Assembly (NCBI RefSeq): GCF_003050935.1
Contig: NZ_QAOX01000012.1
Coordinates: 1-64,000, forward strand
Origin: Luteibacter sp. OK325
Lineage (GTDB): Bacteria > Pseudomonadota > Gammaproteobacteria > Xanthomonadales > Rhodanobacteraceae
Direction: 5' to 3'
Length of the DNA: 64,000 bases
The notes under the pieces are model-generated. The model saw only the letters and a list, made by a program, of their open reading frames with translations. It made no database searches and had not been told where the DNA came from. A program made the position numbers and the translations under genes. Below, one piece after another: positions 32,797-40,972 of the stretch (its first letter is position 1; each line of letters opens with the position of its first letter).

Positions 32797-34155
<1,359 letters not shown>

Positions 34156-35025
34156 TTAGCGCTGGCGGCCGGGGCCGTCGTTGAGATAGCGCAGGAATTC
34201 GGAATCGGGCTTGAGCACCAGCACGCCCTTGCCGTCGGCGAAGGATTTACGGTACGCCGCGAGGCTTCGATAGAACGAGAAGAACTCGGGGTCCTGGTTA
34301 TAGGCCTGCGCATAGATGGCGGCCGCCTGCGCGTCGCCGTCGCCCTTGACCTTGGTCGCGTCCCGGTTGGCGTCGGCGAGCAGCACCACCTTCTGGCGAT
34401 CGGCATCGGCGCGAATCTTCTCGGCGCTCTCCTGACCGGTGTAACGCAGCTCGTTGGCAAGCTGCAGGCGCTCGTTGCGCATGCGCTTGTACACCGAGCC
34501 ACTCACCTCGTCGGGCAGGTCGATGCGCTTGATGCGCACGTCGACGATGGCGATGCCGAGGTTCTTGCGCGCCGCTACATCGGTGTCCTTGCGCACCTGG
34601 CCGGTGATGTCCTCGCGACCGCCGGCAATCAGATCTTCAAGGTTGCGCGAGTTGAACTCGTGGCGCAGCGCATCTTTCACGATCGGCGTGAGGCGCTGGA
34701 TAGCCTGCGTCTGCTCGCCCGAGGTGGCGCGGTAGTACGCCGCGTTATCGGCGATGCGCCACTTCACGTAGAAGTCGACGTTGACGCTTTTCTTCTCGAG
34801 CGTGAAGTAACGCTCAGGCTGCGCATCGAGGCCGAGGATGCGATTGTCGAACCGCATCACCTGCTGCACCACGGGAATCTTGAAGTGCAGGCCGGGCTGG
34901 TAGTCGGCGCGCACGATGCGGCCGAACTGCAGCAGGAGGGCGTTCTCGCCTTCCTTCACGACAAACGCACTGTTGAACGCCAGCAGGACGACGATGAGGA
35001 CGATGAGGCCGGAGATGTACTTCAC
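34156..35025 (-). CDS. hflC: HflC, SPFH-domain regulator of FtsH
   Basis: Forms with HflK the large inner-membrane cage around the FtsH protease. The 289-residue protein has an N-terminal membrane segment (residues about 4-20), an SPFH domain (VVKEGENALLLQFGRIV) and a coiled-coil C-terminal part. The GTG at 35025 overlaps the hflK stop (GTGA), which fixes the start. Codon context and length match the family. Confidence 0.95.
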   Translation of the reverse strand: MKYISGLIVLIVVLLAFNSAFVVKEGENALLLQFGRIVRADYQPGLHFKIPVVQQVMRFDNRILGLDAQPERYFTLEKKSVNVDFYVKWRIADNAAYYRATSGEQTQAIQRLTPIVKDALRHEFNSRNLEDLIAGGREDITGQVRKDTDVAARKNLGIAIVDVRIKRIDLPDEVSGSVYKRMRNERLQLANELRYTGQESAEKIRADADRQKVVLLADANRDATKVKGDGDAQAAAIYAQAYNQDPEFFSFYRSLAAYRKSFADGKGVLVLKPDSEFLRYLNDGPGRQR

Positions 35026-36152
35026 TGCGCATTCCCCTGCGGATTCGGATTCGCGTCGGTGGTGGCCGACTGGATGACCGGACCCACGCCCGGAACGTTG
35101 CGAACCGTGCCGCCGTTCGACTCGACCGGAAGCTGGATGATGTTCTTGCCGTTGCTGCCGTCGACGACCTTCGGGTTGCCGGCCATGACTTCCTCGACGG
35201 TTTCGAGCCACAGACGACGACGCGTGACTTCCGGCGCGGCGTGGTATTCCTTCAGCAACGCGTTGAAGCGATCGACATCGCCGTTGGCGCGCGCGATGCG
35301 CTCCACACGCTCGCCCTGGGCTTCGGCGGCGATGCGCGCGGCGTCGCCACGGGCCACCGGTACCACCTGACTTTCGTAGGCGCGGGCCTTGTTCTCTTCA
35401 CTCTGTTTGTCTTCGCGGGCGGCGTTGACGTCGTCGAAGGCGTCCTTCACTTCCTTCGGCGGCGACACGTTCTGAAAGCTGACGCCCGTGACCAGGATGC
35501 CGGCGTCGTACTTGTCGAGCGTGGTCTGGAGGATGTCGCGCGTCTGCTGCTGCAGGGTTTCCTTCGCCGCCGGAGCGACGCCAGCGACAGGTGCCTGCGC
35601 CGGCGCGGGCGTATCGACGCCCGGCGTGGTCAGGATGTTGTCCATGATATTCGCGCCGACCACGGAGCGGACGGCCGCTTCGGAGGCGTTCTTCATCGTG
35701 CCGTTTTCGATGTCGTTGTTCGAGTACAGGAACTTACGCGCATCGGAAACCTGGTACTGCACATTGAAGTCGATCGCGATGATGTTCTCGTCGCGGGTCA
35801 GCATGGACACGTTGTCCGAGATCGAACGGACCTGGGTCATCTCGACCTTGGTCACCGTTTCGATCGGGCTAGGCGCCTTCAGGTGGAAGCCAGGCGGCAG
35901 CACGCGCGAGAACTGGCCGAAGCGCAGCACCACACCGACCTGCCGGGCGTCGATCACCGTGTAGCTGCCGACCAGCAGCCAGGCCACGATAAAGACAAGC
36001 ACGACAGCGAATACGCCGCCGCTTCCCGCGCCGAACTTGCCGAAGCGGGCCTTGAGGCTCTTGATCATGCCGTCGAGGTCGGGCTTGCGCCCGCTCGACC
36101 GGTTGCGGTTCCAGGGATCCTTCTGGCCGTTACCGGGTTCGTTCCAAGCCAT
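35022..36152 (-). CDS. hflK: HflK, SPFH-domain regulator of FtsH
   Basis: HflC partner. The 376-residue protein starts with a short Asn/Pro/Gly-rich cytoplasmic head (MAWNEPGNGQKDPWNRN), then one membrane segment (about 47-65), an SPFH domain (DARQVGVVLRFGQFSRVL) and a long helical part. An Ala/Pro-rich insert (about 190-210) sits within the SPFH-coiled-coil junction. It lies 172 bp after hflX; no gene is seen in that gap. Confidence 0.95.
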   Translation of the reverse strand: MAWNEPGNGQKDPWNRNRSSGRKPDLDGMIKSLKARFGKFGAGSGGVFAVVLVFIVAWLLVGSYTVIDARQVGVVLRFGQFSRVLPPGFHLKAPSPIETVTKVEMTQVRSISDNVSMLTRDENIIAIDFNVQYQVSDARKFLYSNNDIENGTMKNASEAAVRSVVGANIMDNILTTPGVDTPAPAQAPVAGVAPAAKETLQQQTRDILQTTLDKYDAGILVTGVSFQNVSPPKEVKDAFDDVNAAREDKQSEENKARAYESQVVPVARGDAARIAAEAQGERVERIARANGDVDRFNALLKEYHAAPEVTRRRLWLETVEEVMAGNPKVVDGSNGKNIIQLPVESNGGTVRNVPGVGPVIQSATTDANPNPQGNAQ

Positions 36153-36324
36153 GGTCGACAGTCTCCTTGGGGGACCGGAGGGTGGGCGGCTGGCAAGCCT
36201 TCAGGTGAACCCAGACGACGGGGATGGGCGGCGGGCGTTGTGACGCTCGTCGCCGCGCCGAATGGGCACGCAAACGTTGTGAATTCTAGCAGACGGGGGC
36301 GGATCGGTGCTCGACGGCGACCAA

Positions 36325-37632
36325 TCAGAACTCCGCGTGGGGCGGGTCGATGAGGTCGCGGAGAGACCTGGCGTGAGCATCGTCGCCAATAAGCGGCGCC
36401 AGGACCGAGCGTGGCGCGTCGATATCGAGGTGCCACCCGTGCTCGTCGATGGCCTCACCGGCAATGGCGCCGGCCGCTTTCAGACGGGCATGAAGACGTC
36501 CCGCCGTGAGAGGAAGCTCAAGACCCGCACGAATCCGGTCACCACCGAGCAGTTCGCCCAGGGCCTCGCGCAGCCCGTCAAGGCCAGCGCCGCTCGCGGC
36601 CGACAGCCAGACCTGGCGCGGCTTGCCGTCCTCACCGCGATCCATGCGTGGTTCGGCCTCGATCAGGTCGACCTTGTTCATGACCGACAACTGGGGCACG
36701 TCGCCGGCGCCGATCTCCTCGAGTACCTCATTGACCACCCGGCGGAGGATTTCCCGCTCCTCGTCCGCCGCATCACTGACATGGATAAGCAGGTCGGCGT
36801 CGCGCGCCTCGGCCAGCGTGGCGCGGAAGGCGGCGACGAGGTCGTGCGGCAGCTCGCGGATGAAGCCGACGGTATCGGCGATGACCGCGGGACCGCAGGC
36901 CAGGCCGTCGATCTTGCGCACAGTGGGATCCAGGGTGGCGAACAACTGGTCCGCCACATACACACCACCCGTGGTCAGCGCGTTGAACAAGGTGGACTTG
37001 CCGGCGTTGGTATAGCCGACCAGGGCCACGCGCGGCACGGTGTTGCGCAGGCGCGACCGGCGCTGCTGGTCACGCTGGGTCTGAACTTTCTCGAGGCGCT
37101 TGCTCAGCATCTTCACCCGCTCGGCAAGTAGCCGGCGATCGGTTTCCAGCTGGGTTTCACCCGGGCCGCGGTTGCCGATGGCACCGCCGCGCTGGGCATC
37201 CAGATGGGTCCAGCCACGGACCAGACGCGTCGCCACGTGCTTGAGCTGGGCCAGTTCGACCTCGAGCTTGCCCTCGTGGGAACGGGCGCGCTGGGCAAAG
37301 ATGTCGAGAATCAGCCCGGCGCGGTCGACGACACGCGTCCCCAGGTGCTTTTCGAGATTGCGCTCCTGCACGGGCGTGAGCTCGTGGTCGACGAGGACCA
37401 GATCGGCCTCGAGGGCGCGCACGGCTTCAGCGACCTCGTCGGCCTTGCCACTACCGATATAGAAACGGGGATTGGGTGTCGCCACCCGAGCCGGGATGCT
37501 GGCCAGGACTTCAGCGCCAGCCGAAGCGACCAGTTCGGCGAATTCCTCGCCACGGCGGATCGCGTCGCTTTCGCCACGCGAATGCGGCAGGACCAGCACG
37601 GCCCGCTCGCCTTTCTTTTGCCTATCGAACAC
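36325..37632 (-). CDS. hflX: Ribosome-associated GTPase HflX
   Basis: Splits stalled ribosomes after heat or antibiotic stress. The 435-residue protein has the N-terminal HflX domain with YIGSGKADE, the RGPGETQLETDRR linker and the GTPase motifs GYTNAGKST (G1), DTVGF (G3) and NKVD (G4). It follows hfq, as in E. coli, and ends 172 bp before hflK. Confidence 0.96.
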   Translation of the reverse strand: MFDRQKKGERAVLVLPHSRGESDAIRRGEEFAELVASAGAEVLASIPARVATPNPRFYIGSGKADEVAEAVRALEADLVLVDHELTPVQERNLEKHLGTRVVDRAGLILDIFAQRARSHEGKLEVELAQLKHVATRLVRGWTHLDAQRGGAIGNRGPGETQLETDRRLLAERVKMLSKRLEKVQTQRDQQRRSRLRNTVPRVALVGYTNAGKSTLFNALTTGGVYVADQLFATLDPTVRKIDGLACGPAVIADTVGFIRELPHDLVAAFRATLAEARDADLLIHVSDAADEEREILRRVVNEVLEEIGAGDVPQLSVMNKVDLIEAEPRMDRGEDGKPRQVWLSAASGAGLDGLREALGELLGGDRIRAGLELPLTAGRLHARLKAAGAIAGEAIDEHGWHLDIDAPRSVLAPLIGDDAHARSLRDLIDPPHAEF

Positions 37633-37724
37633 TTAGGGGGATGACCTCATGCAGAAGAAGGGGTGCGCGATGCCAAAGCATACGCGCACCCGTCCCTTTA
37701 CATATGGGTTGCCACCGGGGCCCC

Positions 37725-37985
37725 TCAACCCTCGGCGTCGCCCGCACCCGATTCCGGATGATTCTCATGGCCACCGACCCGCACATTGCGGCTCGGCACG
37801 ACCGTCGAGATGGCGTGCTTGTAGACCATCTGGCTCACCTGATTGCGCAGCAGAACCACGAACTGGTCGAACGACTCGATCGTGCCCTGCAGCTTGATAC
37901 CGTTCACCAGGTAAATGGCGACCGGCACACGCTCACGGCGAAGCGCATTCAAAAACGGATCCTGCAACGACTGCCCTTTGGACAT
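37725..37985 (-). CDS. hfq: RNA chaperone Hfq
   Basis: Sm-like hexamer that pairs small RNAs with mRNAs. The 85-residue protein has the Sm1 motif ([19 protein letters not shown]) and the Sm2 motif ([12 protein letters not shown]), with Gln8 of the proximal site in [13 protein letters not shown]. The ATG at 37985 has a good ribosome binding site (GGGGAGAAG). The C-terminal tail is short. A weak hairpin with a T7 run lies in its leader (38024-38042). Confidence 0.97.
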
Positions 37986-38023
37986 TTCTTCTTCTCCCCT
38001 ACGCCTTTCGTACGGGTCCGGGT

Positions 38024-38042
38024 AAAAAAACGCCAAACGGCG
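38024..38042 (-). terminator. Weak hairpin with T7 run in the hfq leader
   Basis: On the minus strand CGCC-GTTT-GGCG is followed by seven T, about 40 bp upstream of the hfq start and 30 bp after the miaA stop codon. The 4-bp stem is too short for efficient termination. It may partly separate miaA from hfq or present a U-rich Hfq-binding tract. Confidence 0.4.
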
Positions 38043-38075
38043 CCCCAGCCCAAGTGTCTTGAATCTTAACTGCTT

Positions 38076-39056
38076 TTAAACGCCAGCAGGAAGCGCCGGA
38101 CGTGACGACTTCGGCATTCCCAGGAACTGCCCGAGGGCCTTGTCCACTTCCGGCAACGGATCCCCCCGGTCCGGGTCGAACGTGCGTGCGTCCAGCTCGT
38201 TGCGCAACCAGGTGATCTGGCGCTTGGCGAGCTGCCGCGTTGCATAGATACCACGGTCGCGAAGGTTCGTCGCGTCGCCCTGCCCGTCCAGATACTCCCA
38301 GGCCTGCCGGTAGCCCACGGCGCGGATGGCCGGGAGGTCGGCGTGGAGGTCGCCACGGGCCTTCAGGGCCCTGACTTCGTCGAGGAAACCGTCGGCCAGC
38401 ATGGCGTCGAAGCGGATGGCGATCCGTTCGTGAAGGGCCTTGCGGTCATCGGGCAGGAGGGCGAGCTTGAGCACCCGCCAGGGCAACCGGTCGCCGACCG
38501 CCTGCTTCTGCAGATCGGTCAATCGCTGGCCGGTGAGCTCCATCACCTCGAGTGCCCGCTGGATGCGCTGCGCGTCGCCCGGCCGGATACGCTCGCCGGC
38601 CACGGGATCGAGTGCCGCCATGCGTGCGTGCATCACTGCCCAACCCACGGTTGCGGCTTCGGCCCCCAGGCGCTCACGGAGCGCGGGGTCGGCTTCCGGT
38701 AGATCCGACAGGCCACGTTGAAGGGCTCGAAAGTAGAGGCCCGTGCCGCCGACCAGGAGCGGCACCTTGCCCGCTTCAGCGATACGACCCATCGCGGCCA
38801 GCGCATCGCTGCGAAACTCCGCCGCCGAATAAGGCTGGGCGGGGTCGCGGATATCGACGAGTTCGTGCGGGTAGCGCGCCAGCGTCGCGGCGTCCGGCTT
38901 GGCCGAGCCGATGTCCAGTCCGCGATACACCAACGCCGAATCGACACTAATCAGACCCACCGGATAGCGATCGGCCAGCGCGCAGGCCAGCGCCGTCTTG
39001 CCCGATGCGGTCGGGCCCATCAGGAAGATGGCGAGGGGACGGGTGTCGAGGGTCAT
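38076..39056 (-). CDS. miaA: tRNA dimethylallyltransferase
   Basis: Adds an isopentenyl group to A37 of tRNAs reading UNN codons. The 326-residue protein has the P-loop [11 protein letters not shown], the [16 protein letters not shown] motif (usual DSMQVY) and [10 protein letters not shown]. The ATG at 39056 ([12 protein letters not shown]) is the family start. It is the first gene of the miaA-hfq-hflX series on the minus strand. Confidence 0.96.
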
Positions 39057-39154
39057 GGGCGCGCGAAGTGAAAAGCGAAGGCAAGCGTACCCCAGGCAGT
39101 GACAGCGACCACGACCTTTGGCAGGATCGTCGGACACACAGGGAGAATGGAAGC

Positions 39155-40135
39155 ATGTTGCGTGTTTCGATAGCGCTTGCCGCCGTAATGGGATTCGTCG
39201 CCTCGGCGCAAGCCGCTACGGTCGTGCCGACCGTCTATGAGGCTGGGCATTTCTTCGCGACCCCGACACTGGCCAACGGACAGGTACTCCGCCTGCTGGT
39301 GGATACCGGCGGGGGCGGCATCAACTACTGGCTTCAGGAAAGCACCGCTGCCCGGCTGGGGCTGCAGAAAGTCAGTTGTCCCGAACTCGCCGATGCCCCG
39401 TTGGTGACCGCACCCGAATACCAACCGGACAAAGGCTTACCCAAGCCAAAAACCTACTGCGGCGCGATCTCGGCACTCGTGCCTGAAGACGGGATCGACA
39501 CGACGATGGACGGCATGGTCGGCTCGTCCTACCTGCCGGACCACATCTGGACCTTCGACTATCCTCGTCGAACGCTGAGTATCGAAGCGCCCAGCTGGAT
39601 GCCTCCGAACAATGCCCACGCGCTTCACATGAACCTTCCCGCGACCCGCAAGGGGCAGGTACGCCAGTCGTTCCCGCGTATCAAGGTCACTGTCGCAGGC
39701 GAGGACGTCGATATGTTGCTCGACACCGGCGCCACTGCCCGGCCTACCAGGGAAGGACTCGCCACCATGGGCACTTCCGTCGTGAAGGGCGAAGGCACGA
39801 CCAGCTACGCCACGGCGCGTCTTATCAGCCATTGGCACGACGCGCATCCAAACTGGGCGGTGCTCGACAATGCCGACGGACTTATCGGACCGAAGCGTGC
39901 CATTCGCGTGCCGTCCGTCGAGATCGGTGGTTGGGCGGTGGGTCCCGTGTGGTTCGTCGAACGACCCAATGCCAATTTCGAACAGGTGATGTCATCCATG
40001 ATGGATGGGACAGTGCATGGGGCGATAGGTGCCAACGTCCTGTCGTCGTTCCGCATGACTCTTGACTACGTCCACGCGACAGCGTGGCTCAGTTGTGTCG
40101 AACGATGCGAAGCCTCAGTGCCGGCCACTAAGTAA
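39155..40135 (+). CDS. Exported retropepsin-like aspartyl protease with two DTG motifs
   Basis: A 326-residue protein with a signal peptide (residues 1-20, [20 protein letters not shown]). It carries two DTG motifs, [13 protein letters not shown] in the first half and [13 protein letters not shown] in the second, which suggests two aspartyl-protease lobes in one chain, as in pepsins, rather than the single lobe of dimeric retropepsins. ATG at 39155 has a ribosome binding site (GGAGAATGG). The last codon and stop lie within repeat R1. Activity is inferred. Confidence 0.72.
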
Positions 40136-40227
40136 GCAGGACAACGCAAGCCTATGCTGCATAAAGCGTAATCCGACTTGTCCACAGGTTTATGCAAGGC
40201 CTGTCCACACTACCTGTGGATATCGCG
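40131..40227 (+). repeat. 97-bp DnaA-box repeat, copy R1
   Basis: First of three ungapped 97-bp direct repeats. DnaA-box-like 9-mers lie at 40178-40186 (TTGTCCACA), 40201-40209 (CTGTCCACA) and, inverted, 40215-40223 (TGTGGATAT), with TTATGCA at 40190-40196. It starts at the stop codon of the preceding protease gene (TAA at 40133-40135). Confidence 0.9.
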
Positions 40228-40254
40228 AAGGATGTTTTCGAGGCGTGGTCAAGT

Positions 40255-40351
40255 AGTAAGCAGCACAACGCAAGTGCATGGTGGTGAACGCCGAAACGGA
40301 CTTGTCCACATGGTTATGCAGGCGATATCCACATTCCCTGTGGATATCACG
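40255..40351 (+). repeat. 97-bp DnaA-box repeat, copy R2
   Basis: Second copy, with the same offsets: 40302-40310 (TTGTCCACA), TTATGCA at 40314-40320, 40325-40333 (ATATCCACA) and inverted 40339-40347 (TGTGGATAT). The last two form a perfect 9-bp inverted repeat around a 5-nt spacer. A further single box, CTATCCACA, lies at 40383-40391. Confidence 0.9.
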
Positions 40352-40438
40352 CGCATGAGAATCAGGGACGCCTGACCTCACGCTATCCACAAGCTGCGTT
40401 AGGCTTCCCCATACGTCACTTTGCGCACGGAAAACACC

Positions 40439-40507
40439 ATGCAACGCCCGACCAACGCCCCGCGCAGTCAACGTGCGCTGACCGCGACGCTGGAGTTCGT
40501 TCAATGA
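40439..40507 (+). CDS. Possible 22-codon leader peptide
   Basis: ATG at 40439 opens a 22-codon frame (MQRPTNAPRSQRALTATLEF then VQ) whose TGA at 40505-40507 overlaps the ATG of the next gene (ATGA). The overlap suggests translational coupling, but the ribosome binding site (GGAAAA) is weak and the peptide has no recognisable feature. It may be chance. Confidence 0.35.
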   Translation: MQRPTNAPRSQRALTATLEFVQ

Positions 40508-40869
40508 CAACCGCACAGGCCCGTTCGACAGGCCGCGCGGAGAACGAGGCCACCGAGCGCGAGAAGTTCTACGCCGATCTCAACCGCACGCGTGCCGAGA
40601 CCGAGAAGATGTACGCAGAGATGAGGAAGCTGAACATGGACGCGTCTCGACACGTTGAAGAAGTGTTGAAGATACGCGCCGAGACGGAAAAGGCCGACGC
40701 CGATGCGAAGAAGCTCATGATGGATGCGACGAAGGCTCAGCTGGAGATCCGCTGGTATCCATACGCTGTCATCGGCTCGCTCGGCCTCGCGTGGCTTGGT
40801 GCCGGCGCAGCTTTGATTACTGCACTGATCAAGCTGTTCGCACTTTGGGGCCAAATGCTCGGATCGTGA
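40504..40869 (+). CDS. Small coiled-coil protein with C-terminal membrane segment
   Basis: A 121-residue protein of unknown function. Residues about 13-82 are a charged coiled coil with an internal duplication of 28 residues, exactly four heptads (RAETEK at 30-35 and 58-63, each followed by a KLxMDA motif). A hydrophobic segment or hairpin follows (about 85-117). It has no signal peptide, so the coil probably faces the cytoplasm. It is bracketed by the DnaA-box repeats, R3 starting 7 bp after its stop. I do not recognise the family. Confidence 0.72.
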   Translation: MTTAQARSTGRAENEATEREKFYADLNRTRAETEKMYAEMRKLNMDASRHVEEVLKIRAETEKADADAKKLMMDATKAQLEIRWYPYAVIGSLGLAWLGAGAALITALIKLFALWGQMLGS

Positions 40870-40875
40870 TCACTC

Positions 40876-40972
40876 AATGATCAACACAACGCAAGCCCTT
40901 GCCTGCGAAGGCGCAATCAGACTTATCCACACGGTTATGCAGGTCGTATCCACAATCCATGTGGATAACGCC
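40876..40972 (+). repeat. 97-bp DnaA-box repeat, copy R3
   Basis: Third copy with perfect DnaA boxes: 40923-40931 (TTATCCACA) and inverted 40960-40968 (TGTGGATAA), plus 40946-40954 (GTATCCACA) and TTATGCA at 40935-40941. Offsets are identical to R1 and R2. It ends 18 bp before the stop codon of the convergent S46 gene. Confidence 0.9.

Follow-up and report, generated by a model that had tools for sequence, protein, structure and literature searches.

The three direct repeats in the window analyzed here (a 64,000-nucleotide stretch of contig C12 from the 4.94-Mb draft genome of Luteibacter sp. OK325) probably represent a new, repeated version of a DnaA-recharging site. On the basis of sequence comparisons, we interpret them as a small array of DARS-like units, i.e., DnaA-reactivating sites predicted to return ADP-DnaA to ATP-DnaA, and we assign this reading a probability of approximately 0.6. 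Little is known about how DnaA is recharged or restrained outside Escherichia coli and its relatives, and a multicopy element with fixed geometry, found in two families beside orthodox DARS, makes the question directly testable. If the reading is correct, DARS-type control has been duplicated and remodeled, its third box having moved by a helical turn and its units standing in stepped arrays, and the geometry of the unit offers a rule by which similar loci can be recognized from sequence. Specialists would be surprised by the multicopy arrays shared by two families, by a third box displaced by one turn, by copies spaced in steps, and by the possible polarity.

The array is flanked by an aspartyl-protease-like open reading frame (ORF) adjoining miaA on one side and by an S46 peptidase gene on the other. 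The minus-strand genes on the miaA side are presumably purA-hflC-hflK-hflX-hfq-miaA, as judged by recognizing their translations. The initial annotation had described three 97-bp direct repeats (R1 to R3) with DnaA-box-like sequences at offsets 47, 70, and 84 (the last inverted) and TTATGCA at offset 59. The repeats aligned without gaps (identity to R2, 72% for R1 and 74% for R3), and every one of these offsets was recovered, together with two perfect TTATCCACA boxes in R3, a perfect inverted pair with a 5-nt spacer in R2, and a further single box. The 97-bp coordinates were correct, but the unit itself is longer, because an upstream TGNNCA half-site is also conserved. DnaA boxes with no more than one mismatch numbered 13 in the window versus 3.3 expected (no shuffle reached 13), and the pattern TATCCACA-N{4,9}-TGTGGATA occurred twice versus 0.00 expected.

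Table 1. Positions in the window of the repeats, their component motifs, and neighboring features. Offsets are given within the 97-bp repeat.
Feature	Position	Strand	Offset	Sequence or remark
Repeat R1	40131-40227			
Unit R1	40122..40223	+		model match 3.8e-19
R1 half-site 1	40122-40127	+		CGGCCA (decayed)
R1 half-site 2	40133-40138	+		TAAGCA
R1 CAAG	40147-40150	+		
R1 box a	40178-40186	+	47	TTGTCCACA
R1 box x	40190-40198		59	weak; TTATGCA from 40190
R1 box b	40201-40209		70	CTGTCCACA
R1 box c	40215-40223		84	inverted
Repeat R2	40255-40351			
Unit R2	40246..40347	+		model match 7.7e-23
R2 half-site 1	40246-40251	+		TGGTCA
R2 half-site 2	40257-40262	+		TAAGCA
R2 CAAG	40271-40274			
R2 box a	40302-40310		47	TTGTCCACA
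R2 box x	40314-40322		59	TTATGCA from 40314
R2 box b	40325-40333		70	ATATCCACA
R2 box c	40339-40347		84	inverted
Single DnaA box	40383..40391	+		CTATCCACA
121-aa ORF	40504..40869	+		between R2 and R3
Repeat R3	40876-40972			
Unit R3	40867..40968	+		model match 6.1e-22
R3 half-site 1	40867-40872	+		TGATCA
R3 half-site 2	40878-40883	+		TGATCA
R3 CAAG	40892-40895			
R3 box a	40923-40931		47	TTATCCACA
R3 box x	40935-40943		59	TTATGCA from 40935
R3 box b	40946-40954		70	GTATCCACA
R3 box c	40960-40968	-	84	inverted; TTATCCACA on minus strand

A sister genome (G196) carries a fourth unit (L086:5857-5946) at about the same place as the single box of the window, which is possibly the remnant of a lost unit. 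Among the loci compared, the 121-aa ORF had a homologue only in this sister genome; it gave no Pfam match, and nothing ties it to the repeat element.

An alignment of 60 to 65 copies from Luteibacter and a sister genus defined a unit of ~102 bp with constant internal spacing. The 5' part reads TGGTCA-N5-TGACCA, N4, and AACGCAAGT, followed by ~26 nt of poorly conserved sequence; its general form is a TGNNCA-N5-TGNNCA module plus a YAAGT motif. The 3' part consists of box a (TT[A/G]T[C/G]CACA), 3 nt, TTATGCA, 5 nt, box b (TATCCACA), exactly 5 nt, and the inverted box c (TGTGGATA). In all aligned units, boxes b and c are in facing orientation with a spacer of exactly 5 nt, and box a is codirectional with b at a distance of 14 nt. 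Between them, 2 nt from b, Luteibacter has a weak DnaA-box match (box x); neither this match nor TTATGCA is kept in other genera, whereas the arrangement a-14-b-5-c and the TGNNCA half-sites are retained in family-wide alignments.

Conservation was concentrated in these elements, with a mean column identity of 0.94 for the boxes, 0.87 for the TGNNCA module, and 0.87 for CAAGT, versus 0.56 elsewhere. Relative to the orthologous copies in G196, only 3 of 108 box positions had changed, versus 34 of 165 in the rest of the unit (P = 8e-6), and the box variants fell within the degeneracy of the DnaA consensus. Not a single compensatory change was found in any pair of the b/c stem (60 copies), and eight copies carried TACCCACA opposite an unchanged stem partner. 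The boxes behave like sites for a protein on double-stranded DNA. The IHF consensus (YAANNNNTTGATW) fitted only partially in the region adjoining the boxes. Boxes consistent with the known degeneracy and a geometry fixed across two families agree with the original proposal of a DnaA-binding unit away from oriC, which probably acts on initiation timing.

The genome of strain OK325 contains three full-length copies, all at this locus. When searched with a sequence model of the unit, all Luteibacter genomes carried 3 to 9 copies, and 126 of 194 Rhodanobacteraceae genomes (23 of 26 genera) had matches. Elsewhere in the same order, matches were found in many genomes of a family whose name we infer to be Xanthomonadaceae, many of them largely restricted to the boxes (from about model position 30 onward), and in hardly any genomes of other families. 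A scan of named genomes with the core of the unit yielded 13 stretches, all of them from Luteibacter. Among 276 genomes drawn across the Gammaproteobacteria, the matches were members of the same order plus one marginal case. Copy number and loci vary among species. In 31 complete genomes, 70 unit loci formed 17 groups according to their flanking genes; loci were orthologous across genera, and one orthologous group was common to 12 genomes. The neighboring genes were unrelated between the 17 groups, indicating that no single gene is under regulation.

These loci tend to be distant from the origin. Their median distance from dnaA was 0.70 of the half-chromosome, and none lay below 0.17 (70 loci in 31 complete genomes); the distribution departed from uniform with a Kolmogorov-Smirnov P value of 4e-5, relatedness among genomes being ignored. 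For comparison, by map position E. coli DARS1 lies at ~0.66, DARS2 at ~0.41, and the oriC-proximal datA at ~0.2. Within arrays, copy-to-copy distances were stepped (e.g., 113 to 117 and 124 to 130). After removal of values that recurred in the same locus group, the spacing fitted best to a period of 11.65 bp (R, 0.57; 95th percentile of jittered controls, 0.40), and phasing at 10.5 bp between copies was not supported. The a-to-c direction ran against the replication fork in 63 of the 70 loci and, once orthologous loci were collapsed, in 13 of 17 (P = 0.049); the orientation bias is suggestive only.

Pairs of facing boxes were also searched, the spacer being allowed to vary between 0 and 12 nt (TATCCACA-N{0,12}-TGTGGATA). 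Matches were present in 141 of 147 genomes of the family, nearly always once outside Luteibacter, and in 130 of 276 genomes of the class; among the matches listed, the spacer was 5 nt in 75 of 75 and 74 of 75 cases, respectively. A reversed-pattern control returned no matches. At all 30 sites that were fetched, a third box (at least 6 of 9 positions; mean, 7.5) stood exactly 3 nt from box II (mean at other spacings, 3.6). Judged by their sequence, such 5-nt sites with a third box at 3 nt are orthodox DARS cores. That DARS-like sequences are present in many proteobacteria was already known from a review (PMC10380432) and is not new here.

In all 11 family genomes examined (L103 and L104-L113), the orthodox core (III-3-II-5-I) is situated directly upstream of priA; of 19 sites fetched from other families of the Gammaproteobacteria, 5 lie beside priA. 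In strain OK325 it reads TCATCCACA-GAC-TTATCCACA-GGTCT-TGTGGATAA (about C1:523752-523787; L103:6254-6288). Given this orthodox DARS in the same genome and a third box at 14 nt in the unit, the array would constitute a second, multicopy, DARS-like class. No report of DARS in Xanthomonas or Luteibacter, or beside priA, was found in the open-licence literature, which is weak evidence of novelty. In many genomes of the family (G002, G003, G013, G017, G019, G023, G035, and G066), one unit locus lies only ~5 to 7 kb from the priA-side DARS. Three genomes of another gammaproteobacterial family, f38 (G233, G360, and G451), have 5, 7, and 3 inverted 5-nt DnaA-box pairs, respectively, and multicopy DARS may thus have arisen more than once. 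An AAGTG beside the priA DARS, at a box distance similar to that of YAAGT in the unit, was considered as the counterpart of that motif and set aside as evidence; in strain OK325 its position is between the DARS and priA, and it may be part of the promoter of priA.

Under the DARS-like reading, ADP-DnaA would bind boxes b and c, with the AAA+ domains meeting head to head as in the DARS model, where the inverted pair brings two ADP-DnaA molecules into this arrangement (PMC8682772; PMC5742627; PMC10380432). ADP would then leave, and the released apo-DnaA would bind ATP. Box a, box x, and neighboring units may raise occupancy or output. The upstream TGNNCA/YAAGT module may be bound by an accessory protein with a gating role, like IHF and Fis at their sites in the regulatory region of DARS2, and the mid-to-distal position would determine the dosage of recharging activity against that of oriC. 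Hda is encoded in this genome; ATP-DnaA is therefore expected to be converted to ADP-DnaA, and a site for recharging would be useful. Several observations count against the reading: the unit lacks a strong box III at 3 nt, the IHF consensus fits only in part, it is not evident why another recharging site would be required in a genome with a single orthodox DARS beside priA, and the orientation bias is not predicted by DARS models.

The main rival explanation, which we regard as unlikely, is titration or inactivation, i.e., either a high-affinity DnaA sink like those of Bacillus subtilis or a datA-like site at which ATP is hydrolyzed with the help of IHF, delaying reinitiation in both cases. 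Clustered in the array are 9 to 12 boxes, and the entire genome contains just 27 TTATNCACA; arrays elsewhere reach six or more units, and DnaA-box clusters outside oriC are known to restrain initiation in B. subtilis (PMC13220808). The strict two-sided geometry fits DARS and not the boxes of datA, however, and titration has no need of conserved non-DnaA modules. In E. coli, datA comprises an IHF site and essential DnaA boxes 2, 3, and 7 near oriC and promotes ATP hydrolysis, whereas the array differs in box geometry and the unit loci are distal, with none within 0.17 of dnaA. Of the initial suggestion of a titration or timing site, timing is retained, and titration as the leading idea is less well supported in view of the DARS geometry, the distal loci, and the accessory modules.

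Orientation is central to two other readings. We consider it quite improbable that the units form a DnaA machine with polarity and helical phasing, confined to Rhodanobacteraceae and Xanthomonadaceae and arranged in ~11.6-bp steps against the fork, whose output depends on passage of the fork or on a strand-specific state and couples replication progress to DnaA reloading or helicase loading, unlike DARS or datA. Very unlikely, too, is a strand-specific fork element such as the A-site of the ABC primosome, where a DnaA-box hairpin on single-stranded DNA lets DnaA load DnaB, serving restart or events on the lagging strand. In R2 and R3, boxes b and c are able to pair into a DNA hairpin (z, -2.6 and -3.1), a DnaA-box hairpin loads DnaB in vitro (PMC6127211), and the prevailing direction against the fork would suit this function. 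R1, however, does not favor the hairpin (z, -1.5), the stem lacks compensatory changes, and allowing for relatedness leaves only weak evidence of polarity. In E. coli DARS, moreover, an inverted pair of the same kind acts as duplex DNA. A site for another protein that reads TGNNCA-N5-TGNNCA, for example, a nucleoid- or chromosome-organizing protein with DnaA as a mere partner, would explain why this module is conserved above background and persists in other genera; we consider it extremely unlikely, as the boxes are conserved more strongly than the module and many Xanthomonadaceae matches consist mainly of the box part. We give almost no credence to an ordinary dispersed or mobile repeat, which the differences in copy number and loci between species might suggest. 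Rather than many dispersed copies with decayed boxes, the pattern named at the outset as evidence against a DnaA-binding unit, this genome has one locus with conserved boxes; furthermore, loci are orthologous across genera, and the boxes are kept while the spacers diverge.

Several other interpretations were rejected. The locus is not oriC, as had been anticipated, since dnaA, flanked by boxes of its own, lies on contig C5. An RNA gene or hairpin, which had been raised as the possible true reader of the repeat, is disfavored by the absence of covariation in the b/c stem and of any Rfam family above threshold. A promoter element was discarded because there was no sigma-70-type match and no common neighboring gene. 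In E. coli, datA lies ~6.4 kb from miaA-hfq-hflXKC-purA (NC_000913.3:4392658-4405985; L097), and the same block flanks the array (window positions 32797-40135). Homology to datA by way of this neighborhood was not accepted; the proximity is probably a coincidence, given that the unit occupies different loci in other species.

Among known systems, the A-site of the ABC primosome shares with the unit a DnaA box within an inverted repeat that is able to form a hairpin, but it acts on single-stranded template DNA, and the stem of the unit shows no compensatory change. datA and the B. subtilis clusters likewise have clustered DnaA boxes outside oriC, but without the rule of a 5-nt inverted pair, and the B. 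subtilis clusters are simple sinks. The priA-side DARS has the same II-5-I pair as the unit, is adjacent to it in evolution, and co-occurs with it in one genome; it differs in having one copy per genome, a third box at 3 nt, and a fixed neighbor, priA.

The closest comparison is with DARS1 and DARS2 of E. coli MG1655, the sequences of which we read directly. DARS1 is TTATCCACT-ATTCC-TGTGGATAA-CCA-TGTGTATTA, and both sites have the spacing I-5-II-3-III. The head-to-head I/II pair has been described as a hallmark of DARS that is essential to their function (PMC10380432). The b/c pair of the unit has the orientation and 5-nt spacer of box II and box I, and in both systems there are additional codirectional boxes on the box II side, an adjoining accessory region, an intergenic location, and a mid-to-distal chromosomal position. 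The unit differs in that its strong third box lies 14 nt from box II instead of 3 nt (an 11-bp shift, approximately one helical turn outward), in the weak extra box x of Luteibacter, and in its occurrence as several copies per locus and at several loci, alongside orthodox DARS. To our knowledge, the TGNNCA-N5-TGNNCA module is not known from E. coli DARS. We did not classify the unit as DARS, because a strong box III in the same direction at 3 nt from box II was looked for in the unit and was absent; most likely, it nevertheless works like DARS.
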